From a virus, in IMG/VR virus record IMGVR_UViG_3300032116_015969, positions 1 to 25,060 of that record: a stretch of DNA of 25,060 nucleotides; one strand, given 5' to 3'. How positions within the stretch are numbered: position 1 is the first letter of the stretch; each line of letters opens with the position of its first letter. Shown here in pieces: positions 5,800-13,540 of this stretch. The notes beneath the pieces are model-generated. The model did no database searches and was not told the DNA's origin. It saw nothing but the letters and a program-made list of their open reading frames with translations. The translations under genes and the position numbers were made by a program.

Positions 5800-6363
5800 A
5801 TGCCCCATCTATATTTGGATATGGATGGGGTACAAGCCGACTTCTTCACCCAATGGGCACGATGGTGGAGTACAAAAATGAATGACCCTAATATACAATG
5901 GTATAAGGATATTGGTGACAAAGAACAGCGTGAAATATCTATTGCTGCACTACAAGCAGAAGGTCCTGACTTTGTTTACGAATTCTTTGCTACTCTTCCA
6001 GTACTATCAGGCTGCGAAACTATACTCAGTTGGATAAGCAGTAACAACATCCCCTGCACTGTACTGTCAGCACCACTTAGATCACCCAAAGAAGATAAAA
6101 AGAAGATCATTACTCAAGCTAGTATTGAGGGCAAAAAGCGTTGGCTTAGTCAACATAATTCAAATATGCCTGCTATCTTTGACGGCATGAAAGAACGATA
6201 TGCTACAAAGGGCGGACAACCTAATGTATTGATTGACGACCACAAAAAGTATATCAGTAGTTGGGAAAGTGCAGGTGGTATAGGAGTACTACACCGTTGG
6301 AACAATACTAGTGAAACTATTGAAAAACTAAACCAAATTTATAAACCATACCTAGATAAATAG
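5800..6363 (+). CDS. 5'(3')-deoxyribonucleotidase-like HAD phosphatase
   Basis: A 187-aa HAD-superfamily phosphatase, expected to remove phosphate from deoxynucleoside monophosphates in the cytoplasm and so affect nucleotide pools. Motif I is LYLDMDGVQADFF, with nucleophile Asp and acid/base Asp two apart (residues 7 and 9). Motif II is represented by CTVLSAP, and the acidic motif IV by NVLIDDHKKYISSWESAGG. Similar 5'-nucleotidases occur in T4-like cyanophages. ATG 5800 puts motif I at the N-terminus as usual for the family. A GTG at 5761, overlapping the previous ORF, is an alternative that would add 13 residues. The 3' end of this gene also exists as a partial copy at 7284-7329. Confidence 0.8.
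   Translation: MPHLYLDMDGVQADFFTQWARWWSTKMNDPNIQWYKDIGDKEQREISIAALQAEGPDFVYEFFATLPVLSGCETILSWISSNNIPCTVLSAPLRSPKEDKKKIITQASIEGKKRWLSQHNSNMPAIFDGMKERYATKGGQPNVLIDDHKKYISSWESAGGIGVLHRWNNTSETIEKLNQIYKPYLDK
6355..6362 (+). promoter_or_regulatory. T4-type late promoter (GATAAATA), copy 1
   Basis: GATAAATA overlaps the nucleotidase stop codon and precedes the ATG at 6384 by 21 bases. The 20-base context TACCTAGATAAATAGTATAT (6349-6368) is repeated exactly at 7310-7329, before the next gene. Location before a virion-type gene and the repeat make this one of the best late-promoter candidates in the window. Confidence 0.6.
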
Positions 6364-6383
6364 TATATTAACTCAAATATACT

Positions 6384-7292
6384 ATGTCAGCGCAACAGTT
6401 TTTTAGAAAATATTTAGATATTCTTAACGAACAATCACAGCCACCAAGCCAAGAATTTATAAATCAACTTGACAGAGCCTATAGAACAGGCGAGGGTCCG
6501 GGTGCTGAAGTAATGAGCGGATTAAGCAGAGATCAACAAGCAATGATGCTAAGAAATCAAGGTGCTTGGGTAAACCGAGATCAGGCGGTTCAGCAAGGCG
6601 AAAATCCAGGTGCGCGGGTTTATAATCCAAATCAACAAGACATTGACGCAAGGGAAGCAGGGATTCAAGCAAGTTTAGATAGAGTAAAAGATCCAAAAGA
6701 ACGGGCTGAGAGGTTAGCAGCCATACAATCCCGAGATATAAACAAACCATATTTTACCACTACTCAACCAACTACTACTGATACAAAAGCAAAACCTGCT
6801 CCTGCCCCTGCCTCCACACCTGCACCGGCACCACAAATTAATGCTGATCCTATAGATTTTCAAGCTAGAGCAGGAACCCAATCTATAGCAGATACTGGTT
6901 TAGGTAAATTAAGCGGCGGTGTTAGTTTAGGAGGTAGTGCTAGCAACTATATGACTCCATCAATGAGAGCAGAATTAGCCAATCAAAGTGGTGGTAAATT
7001 TGTCGCTGATATTGGACAAAATAGACAACAATTAGGATATCAACAGGATTTAGGCAACGGATTAACTGGGCAATTAGCATTAAACAGAAACGCTCAAGGT
7101 GGTATGAGTGCAGGTATAGGTGCAGAAAAACAAGTAAATCCAAATCTATCATTTGGTGGCGGCATAAGCGCACCCATTAGTGGGCAAGGTAGTGCTAGAG
7201 GTGACATTTATGGTAAATACACCTTTGAGGAAGAATTAGAAGAAGAATTACAAAAGATTCTAAAATTAAGCGGCAAGTCATCAAAAAACTAA
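6384..7292 (+). CDS. Low-complexity protein with capsid-targeting-like N-terminus
   Basis: A 302-aa protein. It starts MSAQQFFRKYLDILNE, closely like the start of the next gene. The middle is Gln/Ala/Gly rich with a Pro/Ala linker around residues 135-150 (APAPASTPAPAP), followed by a Gly-rich part that resembles short beta repeats (GGGISAPISGQGSARGDIYG). It ends with EEELEEELQKILKLSGK, also shared with the next gene. The N-terminal aromatic/basic helix followed by LNE resembles T4 capsid-targeting sequences (for example EFIAEA in internal proteins), which are cut by the prohead protease after (I/L)xE. A packaged internal head protein is therefore my inference. No enzyme motif is seen. Confidence 0.65.
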   Translation: MSAQQFFRKYLDILNEQSQPPSQEFINQLDRAYRTGEGPGAEVMSGLSRDQQAMMLRNQGAWVNRDQAVQQGENPGARVYNPNQQDIDAREAGIQASLDRVKDPKERAERLAAIQSRDINKPYFTTTQPTTTDTKAKPAPAPASTPAPAPQINADPIDFQARAGTQSIADTGLGKLSGGVSLGGSASNYMTPSMRAELANQSGGKFVADIGQNRQQLGYQQDLGNGLTGQLALNRNAQGGMSAGIGAEKQVNPNLSFGGGISAPISGQGSARGDIYGKYTFEEELEEELQKILKLSGKSSKN

Positions 7293-7329
7293 ACGAGATT
7301 TACGGACCCTACCTAGATAAATAGTATAT
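7284..7329 (+). repeat. Partial second copy of the nucleotidase 3' end and late promoter
   Basis: This stretch aligns without gaps to 6323-6368 at an offset of 961 bases, with 40 of 46 bases identical. In the corresponding frame it reads KLNEIYGPYLDK and a stop, against KLNQIYKPYLDK and a stop for the real nucleotidase. It is not in the frame of the 302-aa gene, which has already stopped at 7292. The similarity continues past a 6-base indel into the start of the next gene, so the whole upstream unit was duplicated. Confidence 0.75.
7316..7323 (+). promoter_or_regulatory. T4-type late promoter (GATAAATA), copy 2
   Basis: GATAAATA lies 27 bases before the ATG at 7351, inside a 20-base block identical to the one around 6355. 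It is part of the duplicated unit and would give the second gene its own late promoter. Confidence 0.6.
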
Positions 7330-7350
7330 CACCTTAATTTGGAATATACT

Positions 7351-9774
7351 ATGTCAGACCAACAATTTTTCAGAAAATATATAGATATCGTAAACGAAGA
7401 ATCTCCTGTATTTCAACAAAGAAATATGGCTAATTCTCAGAAATGGGCAAAAGAAAATCCTGAGGCTGCTCAATATGCAAAATTAGCAACAGATGTAGTG
7501 ACCGACTATATTCCAGGAGTAAGCCAAGTCAAATCAGCATACCGTGCTGGTAAAGCAGCTTTGGGCGGTGATTACGGTGAAGCCGGAAAACAACTTGTAG
7601 GAGCATTTGTTCCAGGTGGTAGAAGAATGGTTAGTGCAGTAGATGCAGCAGGCAATGCACTTAAAGGAGATTATAAAACCGCAGCAGCAAATTTATCACA
7701 CGCCGCTGGGGGAGAGTTAGGCAGAGCAGTATCTACTGGGCTAGCAGCAAACGATTTATATCAGGCATATGGTCCAAGTACTACTCCAACAGCACCTGCA
7801 ACACAAACTGCGCAAGCTAACACACCAGCCGCAGCACCTAATACATCAGCAACTACAGGACCTTACACTCCAGGACCAGCATTACAATCTTTAACTAGAC
7901 AGGCATCTACAGCACCTACGACACCTGAACCAACTACAGAAGAACAAGAGTTAGATGAAAATGGTAGAATGAGAAAACTATTGGATATGCTTGACGAGGC
8001 TCCTGTAACAGCTATTAATCCCAACGATCCTAACGCTGCCGCATTTGGTAAAAAAATTAACACAACTAGTAGTACAACAGTACAACCAACGCCGCAAAGC
8101 ACTCCAACTAATGTGGATTTTCAAGCGACTAGATCAAGAGATAGATTACAACAACAAATGGCATCAGGAAAAATTAACACACCTGCACCTCAGACAGTAA
8201 ATCCAAATCAAAAATACGGTGGCGGGTATGACCCCACTAAGGTTCAATATGCATCAGGTAACAATCAAGCGGCACCTACAGCAAGTGCATCTCAATCAGC
8301 AGCACTAGATGCATCAAAAACAAAAGCGATTGGCGGTACACAACAGACAGCAAGTGCAGCACAATCACAAGCAAATCAAACATCAAAAGCAAATGTTATT
8401 GGTGGTGGTATGCAACAGATGGCTCAAACAAATCAAAACCCAAGTATGGATCCTTATAATCCTGCCACAGATCCTAGTCTACAAGCAGGCTATGCTGCAG
8501 TCGCTAAACCAGACGTTGAAGGATTAAAATTGGGGGTAGCAGCCGGAACCCCTTCTGCTGCACAAACAAATCAGCAAACGCAAACAGCATCAACTGGTGG
8601 TGGATTTCAAGGTGGTGGTTACGGTAGTGTCGGTAATCAAGGACAAACTGCTCAAGTTGAGGAGGAAGAATTAGAAGAAGAATTACAGAAAATACTAAGG
8701 CTCAGTGGCAAGCAAAGACAACCCACTAATGAGAATGATAGCCTTAAAAAGTTTTACAACATTTTAAATGAAGCAACTGATAACGATGAAATAGAGTTGC
8801 ATGATAGTTTTGACATTGAGTTAAACGAACACTTTGTAATCGAAACAGGTATTATTGGCTTTACTGAAGATGGTATTATCATTGAAGCAGATGAAACATT
8901 GTTAGGGTTATTAGAAGTGAATAATATCCTATGTGAGGAAGAGACTACACATTCTAAACCTGACACAAATAAAAAAGATAAACCATCTGATTATATGGAC
9001 ACAAAACCAGCAACAGATAAAAGAATGGATACGTCTAAATTAATGGATAAAGAACCCTTAAAAGACAAACCACTAAAGAAAGATCCAAAAGATTATATGG
9101 TGCATGAAGCACCCGAAGGTTGGGGCCAAGATACCATGACTATGAAAGATGGTTCGGTAATGAAGTACGATCCCAAATCTAACAGTTATTCACAAGTGTC
9201 GGGACCAACTCGGGCTGATACTAAAACATCGGTGTCTGCAGTTGATGCTCTTAGATCAAAAGCTACTAATTCTAGTAAAGGAGATTCAACTTATGATCAA
9301 GAATTTTACTCTACATCTGTGTTTAGAGATCCCAAAACTCGCACTGGCGACTATCTTAAAACTCAGCTCAAAGGTGACGACTACGAGCAGGATTATCAAA
9401 CAGATGTAAGCAAGCCTTGGCTGGATTATACATTGGACAAAGCAAAACAGGACGCGGATACTATGATGCAAGAACCAGGTTCATACAAGTCCATGCCCCA
9501 AGGTCCAATGGCACAATTTCGTGCCAAAGTAAATGAAGCTGAGTATCAAGGTCGTAAAGTGCCATTAGGTAAGCCAATGGCAGGAGATGTTGCTAAGTCT
9601 AAAGTATATGTTAAGAAGCCAAATGGAAAAGTTGTCAAAGTTAATTTTGGCGACAAGAACATGAAGATTAAAAAATCAAATCCAAACCGTCGTAAGAGTT
9701 TCAGAGCAAGACATCGTTGTGAGAATCCTGGACCACGTTGGAAGGCACGTTATTGGTCATGTAGAGCATGGTAA
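7351..9774 (+). CDS. Large low-complexity virion-type protein with repeated xLxE motifs
   Basis: An 807-aa protein starting MSDQQFFRKYIDIVNE; a TTG 12 bases earlier is less likely. Motifs like the N-terminus recur at residues 207-216 (MRKLLDMLDE) and 465-474 (LKKFYNILNE). A copy of the shared EELEEELQKILRLSGK block lies just before the third. Ala/Gly/Thr/Gln-rich linkers separate these parts. An acidic segment follows at about 478-535, then a Lys/Asp-rich region. The conserved-looking C-terminal domain has VYVKKPNGKVVKVNFGDK and two cysteines (RHRCENPGP and YWSCRAW); it resembles a Cys-containing domain of unknown function (DUF5872-like, from memory) at the ends of aquatic-phage proteins. A prohead internal or scaffold-related protein, possibly processed, is inference. 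The lysin start lies one base after the stop. Confidence 0.65.
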   Translation: MSDQQFFRKYIDIVNEESPVFQQRNMANSQKWAKENPEAAQYAKLATDVVTDYIPGVSQVKSAYRAGKAALGGDYGEAGKQLVGAFVPGGRRMVSAVDAAGNALKGDYKTAAANLSHAAGGELGRAVSTGLAANDLYQAYGPSTTPTAPATQTAQANTPAAAPNTSATTGPYTPGPALQSLTRQASTAPTTPEPTTEEQELDENGRMRKLLDMLDEAPVTAINPNDPNAAAFGKKINTTSSTTVQPTPQSTPTNVDFQATRSRDRLQQQMASGKINTPAPQTVNPNQKYGGGYDPTKVQYASGNNQAAPTASASQSAALDASKTKAIGGTQQTASAAQSQANQTSKANVIGGGMQQMAQTNQNPSMDPYNPATDPSLQAGYAAVAKPDVEGLKLGVAAGTPSAAQTNQQTQTASTGGGFQGGGYGSVGNQGQTAQVEEEELEEELQKILRLSGKQRQPTNENDSLKKFYNILNEATDNDEIELHDSFDIELNEHFVIETGIIGFTEDGIIIEADETLLGLLEVNNILCEEETTHSKPDTNKKDKPSDYMDTKPATDKRMDTSKLMDKEPLKDKPLKKDPKDYMVHEAPEGWGQDTMTMKDGSVMKYDPKSNSYSQVSGPTRADTKTSVSAVDALRSKATNSSKGDSTYDQEFYSTSVFRDPKTRTGDYLKTQLKGDDYEQDYQTDVSKPWLDYTLDKAKQDADTMMQEPGSYKSMPQGPMAQFRAKVNEAEYQGRKVPLGKPMAGDVAKSKVYVKKPNGKVVKVNFGDKNMKIKKSNPNRRKSFRARHRCENPGPRWKARYWSCRAW

Positions 9775-9775
9775 T

Positions 9776-11533
9776 ATGAGAGCAAAAGAATTTATATTTG
9801 AAAGAAAAGAGCAACTTAATTTAGATGAATTAAGGGGAAATCCTAACGTTCGTGTCATGCTTGATTTGATAGCTAGAGCAGAAGGTAATACTAATTATGA
9901 TACACTTGTTGGTGGCGGAAAATTTAAAGACTTCAGTTCGCATCCTAACAAAACAGTTTATCTAAAGTCACTTAACAAAGTTATACCAAGTGATGCTGCA
10001 GGTAGATATCAAATTATGGGAGCCAATTGGGGACCTTATTCTAGAAGATTAGGTCTTAAAGATTTTAGTCCTGAGTCACAAGACAAAATCGCAATACAAA
10101 TGATTGCAGACAGAGGTGCATTAGATTCTGTGCTTAAGGGTGACTATGTAAATGGAATAAAGAAATTAAAAAGCCAATGGGCTAGTCTACCTTCTACAGA
10201 AGTCAAACAAGGATACGGACCAAAAAGTTGGAAGTGGGTAAACAATAATATTGCTGATTTAACGAAGCTGTATGGAGTTGATTCTTCTACTCAAGTTGCA
10301 CAGAAGGATAAGCCATCAACGATAGATACAATTAGAGATGTTGTTTCAACTGCTATTTCACCAAGCACTGCAAAAGCTGACAAAACACAATCGGCTCCTA
10401 CAACACCACAATCAAAAGCAAAGGTAGGATATTACTCTGTAGGTGACAGTCATGCACAGGGGGTAGGTGGTTATTCGGGGCAAGGTTGGACAAATTTTGG
10501 TTCAAGGGGTGCTAGTGCGTTTGATAAACAGCATTTACAAAATATTAAAAACATACCTGCAGGAAGTGTAGTAGCATTAAGTATAGGTGCGAATGATATA
10601 GGCAGCAAAAAATTGTCTGACATTGTTGATCAGGTTAATAAGACTATTGCAGCAAGTAAAGCTAAAGGGCATCAAGTCGTTTATCTTTTACCAACCTCTA
10701 GTTCAGATCCTAAACTACAACAAAAACGTGAAGAATTGAGACAAGCATTACTAAAGTCATTAGATTCAAGAGATATACTAGACTTAGGAATAGCGCCTAC
10801 TAGTAAAGAATTAAAAGGTGCTGATGGTGTACATTTAGGACCAGAGGGTTACAAGACATACGGTAATCTAATTACACAAATGTTTACACCCACAATGTCG
10901 CAAGTGACACCTACGAAAGTAACAACAGAGCCAACTGTTAATAAATTAGTTAAACCAGAACCCAGTGTCACTCCACAGCAACAATCAAAATCAAAGCTAA
11001 CAGTAGAACCACCTGATTCTGATCCAGAAAAAGACCCAAAGGCATGGGCAGAATATGATAGACGAATGGAAAAAATTCAAGCTGCCGCAGGAGAAAAATA
11101 TAGTAAAGAACGTCAAGCACGATTAGATAAAGAACAACAATCAAAATCAAAGCTAACAGTAGAACCACCTGATTCTGATCCAGAAAAAGACCCAAAGGCA
11201 TGGGCAGAATATGATAAACGGATGGAAAAAATTCAAGCCGCAGCAGGAGATAAATTTAGCCAAGAAAGGGCAGCTAGATTAGAAAAGGAACGCAAAGATA
11301 ATCTTAACACCGAAGTTCCTACAAAAGATGCTCCAACCTTGAAAAAAACTACCCCATATTATGCAGGTAAAGAAGGTGACACTGAAATTAAAAGAGGGCA
11401 AACACTAAGTGGTATTGCAAAAGAAAAAGGTATTACACTAAGTGACATAAAAAGGCTTAATCCTGACATAGTTGACCTTAATAAGGTGCTTGCGGGAGCA
11501 AAAATCAAAACTCAATCTCCAGATGATTTTTAA
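9776..11533 (+). CDS. Multidomain lysin: GH104-like transglycosylase, SGNH hydrolase, LysM
   Basis: A 585-aa protein starting MRAKEFIFERK. Residues about 24-165 match the lambda R endolysin lytic-transglycosylase fold (GH104): ARAEGNTNYDTLVGGG carries the likely catalytic Glu36, followed by SSHPNK, AAGRYQIMG, LKDFSPESQD and WASLP. Residues about 217-370 form an SGNH/GDSL hydrolase with GDSHAQG (Ser225), GANDIG (Asn273) and DGVHLGPEGY (Asp350, His353). A duplicated 52-residue linker follows at about 402-505. The C-terminal LysM (about 532-580: IKRGQTLSGIAKEKG, LNPDI, LAGAKIK) should bind peptidoglycan. The protein would cleave peptidoglycan and perhaps remove acyl groups from glycans. The usual lambda R has 158 aa and only the first domain. 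EFIFE near the start fits a prohead-protease IxE site, so it may be a virion lysin rather than a free endolysin. Confidence 0.85.
   Translation: MRAKEFIFERKEQLNLDELRGNPNVRVMLDLIARAEGNTNYDTLVGGGKFKDFSSHPNKTVYLKSLNKVIPSDAAGRYQIMGANWGPYSRRLGLKDFSPESQDKIAIQMIADRGALDSVLKGDYVNGIKKLKSQWASLPSTEVKQGYGPKSWKWVNNNIADLTKLYGVDSSTQVAQKDKPSTIDTIRDVVSTAISPSTAKADKTQSAPTTPQSKAKVGYYSVGDSHAQGVGGYSGQGWTNFGSRGASAFDKQHLQNIKNIPAGSVVALSIGANDIGSKKLSDIVDQVNKTIAASKAKGHQVVYLLPTSSSDPKLQQKREELRQALLKSLDSRDILDLGIAPTSKELKGADGVHLGPEGYKTYGNLITQMFTPTMSQVTPTKVTTEPTVNKLVKPEPSVTPQQQSKSKLTVEPPDSDPEKDPKAWAEYDRRMEKIQAAAGEKYSKERQARLDKEQQSKSKLTVEPPDSDPEKDPKAWAEYDKRMEKIQAAAGDKFSQERAARLEKERKDNLNTEVPTKDAPTLKKTTPYYAGKEGDTEIKRGQTLSGIAKEKGITLSDIKRLNPDIVDLNKVLAGAKIKTQSPDDF
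10979..11290 (+). repeat. Two tandem 156-bp direct repeats inside the lysin gene
   Basis: Copy 1 begins at 10979 and copy 2 at 11135, a period of 156 bases (52 codons, frame preserved). The first 82 bases of each copy (from CAACAATCAAAATC to GAATATGATA) are identical; the rest has drifted. At protein level both copies contain KLTVEPPDSDPEKDPKAWAE and a charged helix. This is a recent in-frame duplication of a linker between the SGNH and LysM domains. Confidence 0.9.
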
Positions 11534-12988: not shown

Positions 12989-13540
12989 ATGTATGATATT
13001 GTAGAGAGCCTATCAGAATCCCGAAGAAAACACATTGAGATTGAAAAACTCAAGTACTCACCCACCGACTTAGCTCCTGTATTAAGCAAAGACACCATAG
13101 AGTATCATTACGATAATCTTGCAAAAGGTTATGCTAAACGATACAATAATAATGAAGGCGATGATGACTTCAATTATGCTGGTGTATTTCTGCACAACAT
13201 TTACTTTTCGCAATTTCGTAGTCCACAAGACAGTAACACACCTAACGGTCCTGTACTCAATTTAATAAAACGCAAGTATGGTTGGTGGCGTGACTTCAAA
13301 GAACAATTCAAAGAAGAAGCCATGAAGATTCAGGGTAGTGGTTGGATTTATATGTCATACAATGGTGACATAAAAACAATAGTAAACCATGAAGTCCGTG
13401 AGGATATTCTTATCTTAGTAGACTGGTGGGAACATGCTTGGGCATTAGACTATCAAGCAGACAAGAAGCAATACTTAGAGAATACATGGAAGATTATGAA
13501 TTGGAACAAGATTAACACACGTTGGGGCAAAAACTTATAG
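12989..13540 (+). CDS. Fe/Mn superoxide dismutase
   Basis: A 183-aa protein (E. coli SodB 193) that should convert superoxide to oxygen and hydrogen peroxide. The metal ligands are visible: His40 in TIEYHYDN, His69 in GVFLHNIYF, Asp145 and His149 in VDWWEHAWALDY. Also present are the gateway Tyr48 and GSGWIYM. Two differences from SodB are notable. The second-sphere His after the first ligand (E. coli HYGKHH) appears as Leu44. The N-terminal outer-sphere Gln position is Gly65, whereas a C-terminal His134 (IVNHEV) could take that role, as in some archaeal-type SODs. Metal (Fe or Mn) cannot be decided. The first 20 residues are an extension, so the true start may lie downstream. One base separates its stop from the next gene. 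Confidence 0.88.
   Translation: MYDIVESLSESRRKHIEIEKLKYSPTDLAPVLSKDTIEYHYDNLAKGYAKRYNNNEGDDDFNYAGVFLHNIYFSQFRSPQDSNTPNGPVLNLIKRKYGWWRDFKEQFKEEAMKIQGSGWIYMSYNGDIKTIVNHEVREDILILVDWWEHAWALDYQADKKQYLENTWKIMNWNKINTRWGKNL

Follow-up and report, generated by a model that had tools for sequence, protein, structure and literature searches.

Predicted T4-type capsid-targeting tags on three neighbouring phage genes and at internal junctions of a fused protein

Three consecutive genes on an environmental viral contig (IMG/VR record IMGVR_UViG_3300032116_015969, positions 1 to 25,060; these 25,060 nucleotides are referred to as the window) encode a 302-aa protein, an 807-aa protein and a lysin with similar N-termini (Table 1), which raises the question of whether the three carry a common sorting signal and of what copies of such a signal would do inside the 807-aa chain. 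The starts MSAQQFFRKYLDILNE, MSDQQFFRKYIDIVNE and MRAKEFIFE all end in (I/L/V)xE in the register of the phage T4 capsid-targeting sequence (CTS), the tag ending at residue 16 being VNE, with neither I nor L at P3. The original prediction named five motif strings, the three starts and two copies at residues 207-216 and 465-474 of the 807-aa protein, and each of them lies where it was reported (positions 6384, 7351 and 9776 for the starts). Of the pattern ascribed to them, the (I/L/V)xE ending is present in all five, whereas the copy at 207-216 lacks aromatic residues and has kept its LDE. The first 18 residues of the 302-aa and 807-aa proteins are 78% identical (BLAST, E 1e-5) and the remainder shares little; profile comparison of the 302-aa protein with another FFRKY-tagged family likewise found only residues 1-18 alike, and a degenerate FFR[KR]Y DNA pattern matched twice in the window against 0 expected. 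For the body of the 302-aa protein we found no relatives in IMG/VR, and Pfam and PHROG scans of the 302-aa and 807-aa bodies returned only phrog_7595. A beta-barrel suspected in the C-terminal half of this 302-aa protein was dropped, the single-sequence model being poor (pLDDT 51).

Table 1 Positions of tags, predicted cuts, genes and promoter-like elements in the window
Feature	Position	Strand	Remark
ATAAATA	6356..6362	+	Late-promoter-like; 21 nt before the tag 1 gene
302-aa protein	6384..7292	+	N-terminal CTS-like tag and unrelated body; only residues 1-18 in common with another tagged family
Tag 1, MSAQQFFRKYLDILNE	6384..6431	+	Predicted cut after E16
ELEEELQKILKLSGK	7233..7277	+	Motif at the C-terminus of the 302-aa protein; recurs within the 807-aa protein
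ATAAATA	7317..7323	+	Late-promoter-like; lies 27 nt upstream of the 807-aa gene
807-aa fused cargo protein (putative)	7351..9774	+	Modules A (1-200), B (201-464), C (465-729), D (730-807)
Tag 2, MSDQQFFRKYIDIVNE	7351..7398	+	Predicted cut after E16
MRKLLDMLDE (residues 207-216)	7969..7998	+	Module B start; targeting residues eroded, LDE kept
ELEEELQKILRLSGK (residues 440-454)	8668..8712	+	Motif of the C-terminal type, immediately preceding the second junction of the 807-aa protein
LKKFYNILNE (residues 465-474)	8743..8772	+	Aligns with N-terminal tags of stand-alone homologues
VNE (residues 727-729)	9529..9537	+	Additional predicted cut before A730; missed in the original prediction
Conserved basic C-terminal domain D (...KSFRARHRCENPGPRWKARYWSCRAW)	9538..9771	+	phrog_7595
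Lysin, 585 aa	9776..11533	+	Lambda-R-like lytic domain, GDSL-like and LysM domains
Lysin tag, MRAKEFIFE	9776..9802	+	Predicted cut after E9
Fe/Mn superoxide dismutase	12989..13540	+	Start MYDIVESLSE is CTS-like but weaker; may also be cargo

In phage T4, the CTS of IPII and IPIII (cut between MKTYQEFIAE and A) and the propeptide of gp24 are cleaved by gp21. The T4 CTS comprises 10 aa, of which residues 4 and 7 serve targeting and residues 8 and 10 serve processing (review, PMC9026906). IPII and IPIII start MKTYQEFIAE and gp24 starts MAKINELLRE; FFRKYLDILNE has the same spacing (P7 Y, P4 I, P3 L, P1 E); in MRAKEFIFE these positions hold Ala, F, I and E. We applied a T4-derived criterion (P1 Glu at residue 8-18, I/L/V at P3, a hydrophobic residue at P4, and a hydrophobic residue or Ala at P7), which picked exactly the 302-aa, 807-aa and lysin proteins among the 25 called genes of the window, all three having P7 and P4 correctly spaced before a P3-x-P1 Glu at the extreme N-terminus. 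Shuffled window N-termini yielded 0.4 passing on average, and none passed in lambda (0/56) or T7 (0/35); from the T4 pieces six were selected, gp24, IPII and IPIII among them. The N-terminal motifs of the three genes very likely function as a CTS, and the tagged proteins are very likely loaded into the head.

The tags are also specific and conserved across databases. A scan of all IMG/VR with FFRKY(L/I)DI, which does not extend to the Glu, returned 51 matches, of which 43 are N-terminal (at most 9 residues after Met); all 43 continue into (I/L/V)xE, some in forms shorter by one residue (FFRKYIDIIEAP), and xE follows in 0 of the remaining 8 (xE was counted by reading the match listing). A near-identical pattern, longer by one codon, matched 30 times in 257 billion bases of bacterial and archaeal genomes, with a Met nearby in three cases and xE in none of these three. 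Among the matches listed, 88 of the 90 ORFs with MRAKEFI at the N-terminus continue into [ILVMF]xE, compared with 0 of 31 for the scramble control MKAREIF; this tag occurs on at least about 22 families that share nothing beyond it, and MKTFK[EQ]F, again among the matches listed, occurs on at least 71 clusters with no similarity past it. The scramble MK[EQ]FKTF, intended as a negative control, returned tag-like starts with xE in 17/29 and is not a clean control because it retains F4 and F7. One tag is thus found on otherwise unrelated proteins, as is required of a CTS; in relatives the motif remains N-terminal on differing genes, and its conservation there together with xE bears out the original prediction. 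Successive genes sharing one tag (MKTFKQF or MRAKE/DF) form arrays of 2-4 in L387, L436, L013 and L253, apparent cargo cassettes, and in L004, L006 and L016 tagged genes are clustered just upstream of the terminase large subunit (gp17) and downstream of gp4.

Taken as a whole, the reading that we consider probable is that the tags are CTSs of the T4 kind, that a prohead protease frees the cargo, and that the 807-aa protein is fused cargo cut at its junctions. During head assembly, the short N-terminal helix would dock each protein on the scaffold core, a gp21-type prohead protease would then cut after (I/L/V)xE and release the cargo inside the head, and the freed cargo would be delivered together with the DNA. 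For the 807-aa protein, the N-terminal tag would import the whole chain, which the protease would split at the tags or sites retained at junctions E216, E474 and E729.

The internal copies coincide with the starts of modules that occur elsewhere as genes of their own. Module B is a separate 213-aa gene in L001, which starts MNDTNFFRKYIDIINEAPATAINP (FFRKYIDIINE) and matches residues 201 onward, and in L002 and L008 it lies behind different fronts with an internal MRKYMDFLDE; the front of the L008 fused protein stands alone as a gene in L095 (70% identity). Eight relatives (L002, L006, L007, L008, L011, L012, L014, L017) encode the counterpart of residues 465-807 as a gene of its own, and the N-terminal tags or starts of these genes align with the internal LKKFYNILNE. 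Because modules B and C exist as separate genes in relatives, both internal copies are former gene starts and, going by these homologues, the 807-aa protein is a fusion of formerly separate genes. The (I/L)xE triplet alone cannot pick out E216 and E474, since the protein has eight such sites (203, 216, 443, 474, 493, 512, 522 and 529); these two are singled out by their homology to gene starts. A structure model of module C was weak (pLDDT 60.8) and gave no PDB fold match at E < 0.001, and profile searching of PDB sequences was likewise negative.

Among 54 distinct homologues, 50 have a Glu directly before domain D, the last 78 residues (beginning SFRARH...); P3 is I/L/V in 38 and, of the 50 Glu-bearing sites, T, F or M in 12. 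In the smallest homologues this junction Glu ends a T4-type CTS (MKRFKQFSE/AEYQG, MLKFSQYIEE/ATYQG and MIRFKEFIDE/ATYQG, the slash following the Glu; such homologues are L037, L040, L049, L051, L052 and L056), which makes VNE729/A730 the best supported internal site. Module boundaries in the 807-aa protein therefore fall both at predicted protease sites and at the limits of genes that relatives encode separately, in agreement with what a polyprotein requires, the agreement being drawn from separate genes for the starts of modules B and C and from minimal genes for domain D. The original prediction had suggested a polyprotein cut into three parts; parts B and C are indeed separate tagged genes in relatives, but the count of three is probably too low, since the fourth site, E729, is the best supported of all. 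Once the first 16 residues are removed, full cutting would give products of about 200, 258, 255 and 78 residues. If true, the fused form explains how the widespread phrog_7595 domain occurs both alone and at the ends of long fusions.

That the 807-aa chain is cut at its internal tags seems to us somewhat more probable than that it is left whole. The main alternative, which we regard as doubtful, is that the N-terminal CTS is real and cut once, with the internal copies only fossils of gene fusion and the 807-aa chain left whole inside the head. When neighbouring tagged genes fuse because a stop codon is lost, such a remnant comes at no cost, and the copy at 207-216 is eroded and changes relative to L001 as if relaxed (pN/pS 0.75 versus 0.03 just after it, both from small counts). 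A mere fossil is harder to reconcile with LKKFYNILNE, where change relative to L001 (FKKFYSILNE) is mostly synonymous (4 synonymous and 2 non-synonymous changes, again small counts), with the Glu so widely present at the E729 site, and with the final xE, which is kept in every fused form: MRKLLDMLDE, MRKYMDFLDE (L002, L008), LKKFYNILNE and FKKFYSILNE.

Genes of the T4 head accompany the tags in relatives. Five contigs (G023, G040, G047, G048 and G049) carry a tagged gene downstream of gp21-gp22-gp23, directly or past two other ORFs, so the search suggested by the original prediction, for N-terminal motif matches near a gp21-like gene, gave a positive answer. Peptidase_S77 (gp21) is encoded by 8 of the 43 tagged contigs, which are mostly short fragments; of the 32 large contigs carrying the tag or the C-terminal domain, 14 have the gp21 family at the cut-off and in 18 it was not found, these being fragments, some with the C-terminal domain only. 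The major capsid proteins of relatives have LKE/NASAG, LME/TATAG or LAE/SSAG before a conserved mature start, and this LxE right before the mature start suggests that the protease of this phage group plausibly retains the LxE rule. No head genes were found in the 25-kb window fragment, and its own protease is for that reason inferred from relatives; that the window phage is T4-like follows from relatives with gp21/gp23, namely the tagged contigs and G003 and G004, which also encode a homologue of the window's module C. A portal family search had no match in 13 relatives, nor in control genomes, and hence is uninformative.

These gene neighbourhoods also bear on whether the motif could be a docking helix for another virion or lysis complex (tail, baseplate or membrane) rather than for the prohead, a reading that we consider very improbable. 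The tagged genes of G003, G004 and L016 lie upstream of the terminase large subunit and not beside capsid genes, and the lysin could work in lysis or at the tail tip, yet the strict xE after the helix is the signature of a protease, the register equals that of T4 IPII/IPIII/gp24, the tagged gene adjoins gp21-22-23 in the five contigs named above, and the cargo is of kinds similar to T4 Alt and antirestriction proteins.

A very improbable alternative to cutting is that the downstream modules of fused genes are made as separate proteins from internal translation starts. L002 and L008 do retain a Met at the start of module B (MDNRQ, MDDRQ) with purine-rich sequence upstream, but in the window this Met is lost (LDENGR), no obvious ribosome-binding site precedes residue 207, and residue 465 is Leu, not a start codon. 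The 302-aa and 807-aa genes have tag DNA and an upstream ATAAATA leader in common, so that tag and leader seem to have been copied together; ATAAATA sits at a near-constant distance before FFRKY genes, a spacing of 26-27 nt also being seen before the equivalent genes in L001, L002 and L008 (the exact T4 late promoter, TATAAATA, does not occur in the window). Such joint copying would suit ordinary paralogy of a duplicated N-terminal domain with no sorting function, which is nonetheless highly improbable given that similarity ends at residue 18, that the tag is retained on many unrelated bodies and that its changes are biased towards synonymous ones.

Compared with known systems, the tags favoured here as CTSs resemble those of T4 IPII, IPIII and gp24 in having a short N-terminal helix with hydrophobic or aromatic residues equally spaced before (I/L)xE; as with the T4 CTS, their carriers are unrelated beyond the tag and relatives encode the gp21 family. 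They differ from it in that FFRKYLDI and MRAKEFI are distinct sequence classes, that far more cargo families carry them, a lysin included, and that one chain contains repeated copies. T4 Alt is a head-delivered ADP-ribosyltransferase with an N-terminal MELITE propeptide; two proteins tagged with MRAKEFI/MKTFKEF (L214, L401) also match ADP-ribosyltransferase families, although in the searches run these were other families than that of Alt, and the tag sequence differs. In the giant phages SPN3US and phiKZ, prohead protease cleavage after Glu likewise frees head cargo, but their propeptides are mostly > 100 residues long and are cut after AxE/SxE; identical N-termini on diverged proteins are known for giant-phage gp53/gp54 (PMC5694885). 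An N-terminal peptide also directs P1 DarB to the head, the first 30 residues being sufficient, but P1 is of another phage lineage and tandem copies are not reported in the accessible part of that source (PMC9024508). The tag type is thus already known from T4, and its wide cargo use and fused form look new: in the literature searched, most subscription journals excepted, no paper prints the tag strings and we found no description of the tandem modular form or the cargo breadth.

Residues 37-146 of the lysin match lambda lysozyme 1am7 (E 7e-25), consistent with a catalytic domain of the lambda R type; the lysin also contains two near-identical copies of QQSKSKLTVEPPDSDPEKDPKAWAEYD... in the region 10968-11201. 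Other tagged proteins match ADP-ribosyltransferase, GH19 + LysM, amidoligase, S-AdoMet lyase, cytidylyltransferase-like and lytic transglycosylase families, kinds of cargo that would suit head-delivered early functions (T4 Alt, antirestriction). We are evenly divided on the broader proposal of a head-cargo polyprotein, in which one tag imports several modules, the prohead protease separates them at retained tags, and tag-headed cassettes are gained, lost and reordered; in environmental T4-like phages the same tag code would mark a large class of proteins delivered from the head, made up of lysins, ADP-ribosyltransferases, S-AdoMet lyase and perhaps superoxide dismutase. If true, a readable N-terminal code would tell which of the many unknown proteins of such phages travel inside the head and are the first to enter the host, many 'hypothetical proteins' would become testable early effectors, and the fused form would be a naturally evolved multi-cargo packaging design.

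A motif recurs at the C-termini of tagged proteins (ELQKILKLSGK, VERIRNFMKKKY, ELDRIKKLIRK; L148, L147, L185, L145, L007) and resembles the C-termini of gp22 (DIKRLAGL) and gp21 (VKRLIRDLKI); from this resemblance it may be a second core-binding signal. Superoxide dismutases have CTS-like starts as well, MYDIVESLSE in the window and MRDIITLLEE, MREIITLLEQ and MLEFIKLIEG among L012, L013, L014 and L315:3010-3558. The homologue in phage PA5oct starts MNDSIKKYISIAEA and its record bears an ESI-MS/MS note, which we read as virion detection; it is possible that superoxide dismutase is carried in the head. Homologues of the window's 5'-nucleotidase gene at about 5800 (L011, L012, L014, L017) likewise have CTS-like starts (MKIVELLTED, MKTKEFLTEN).
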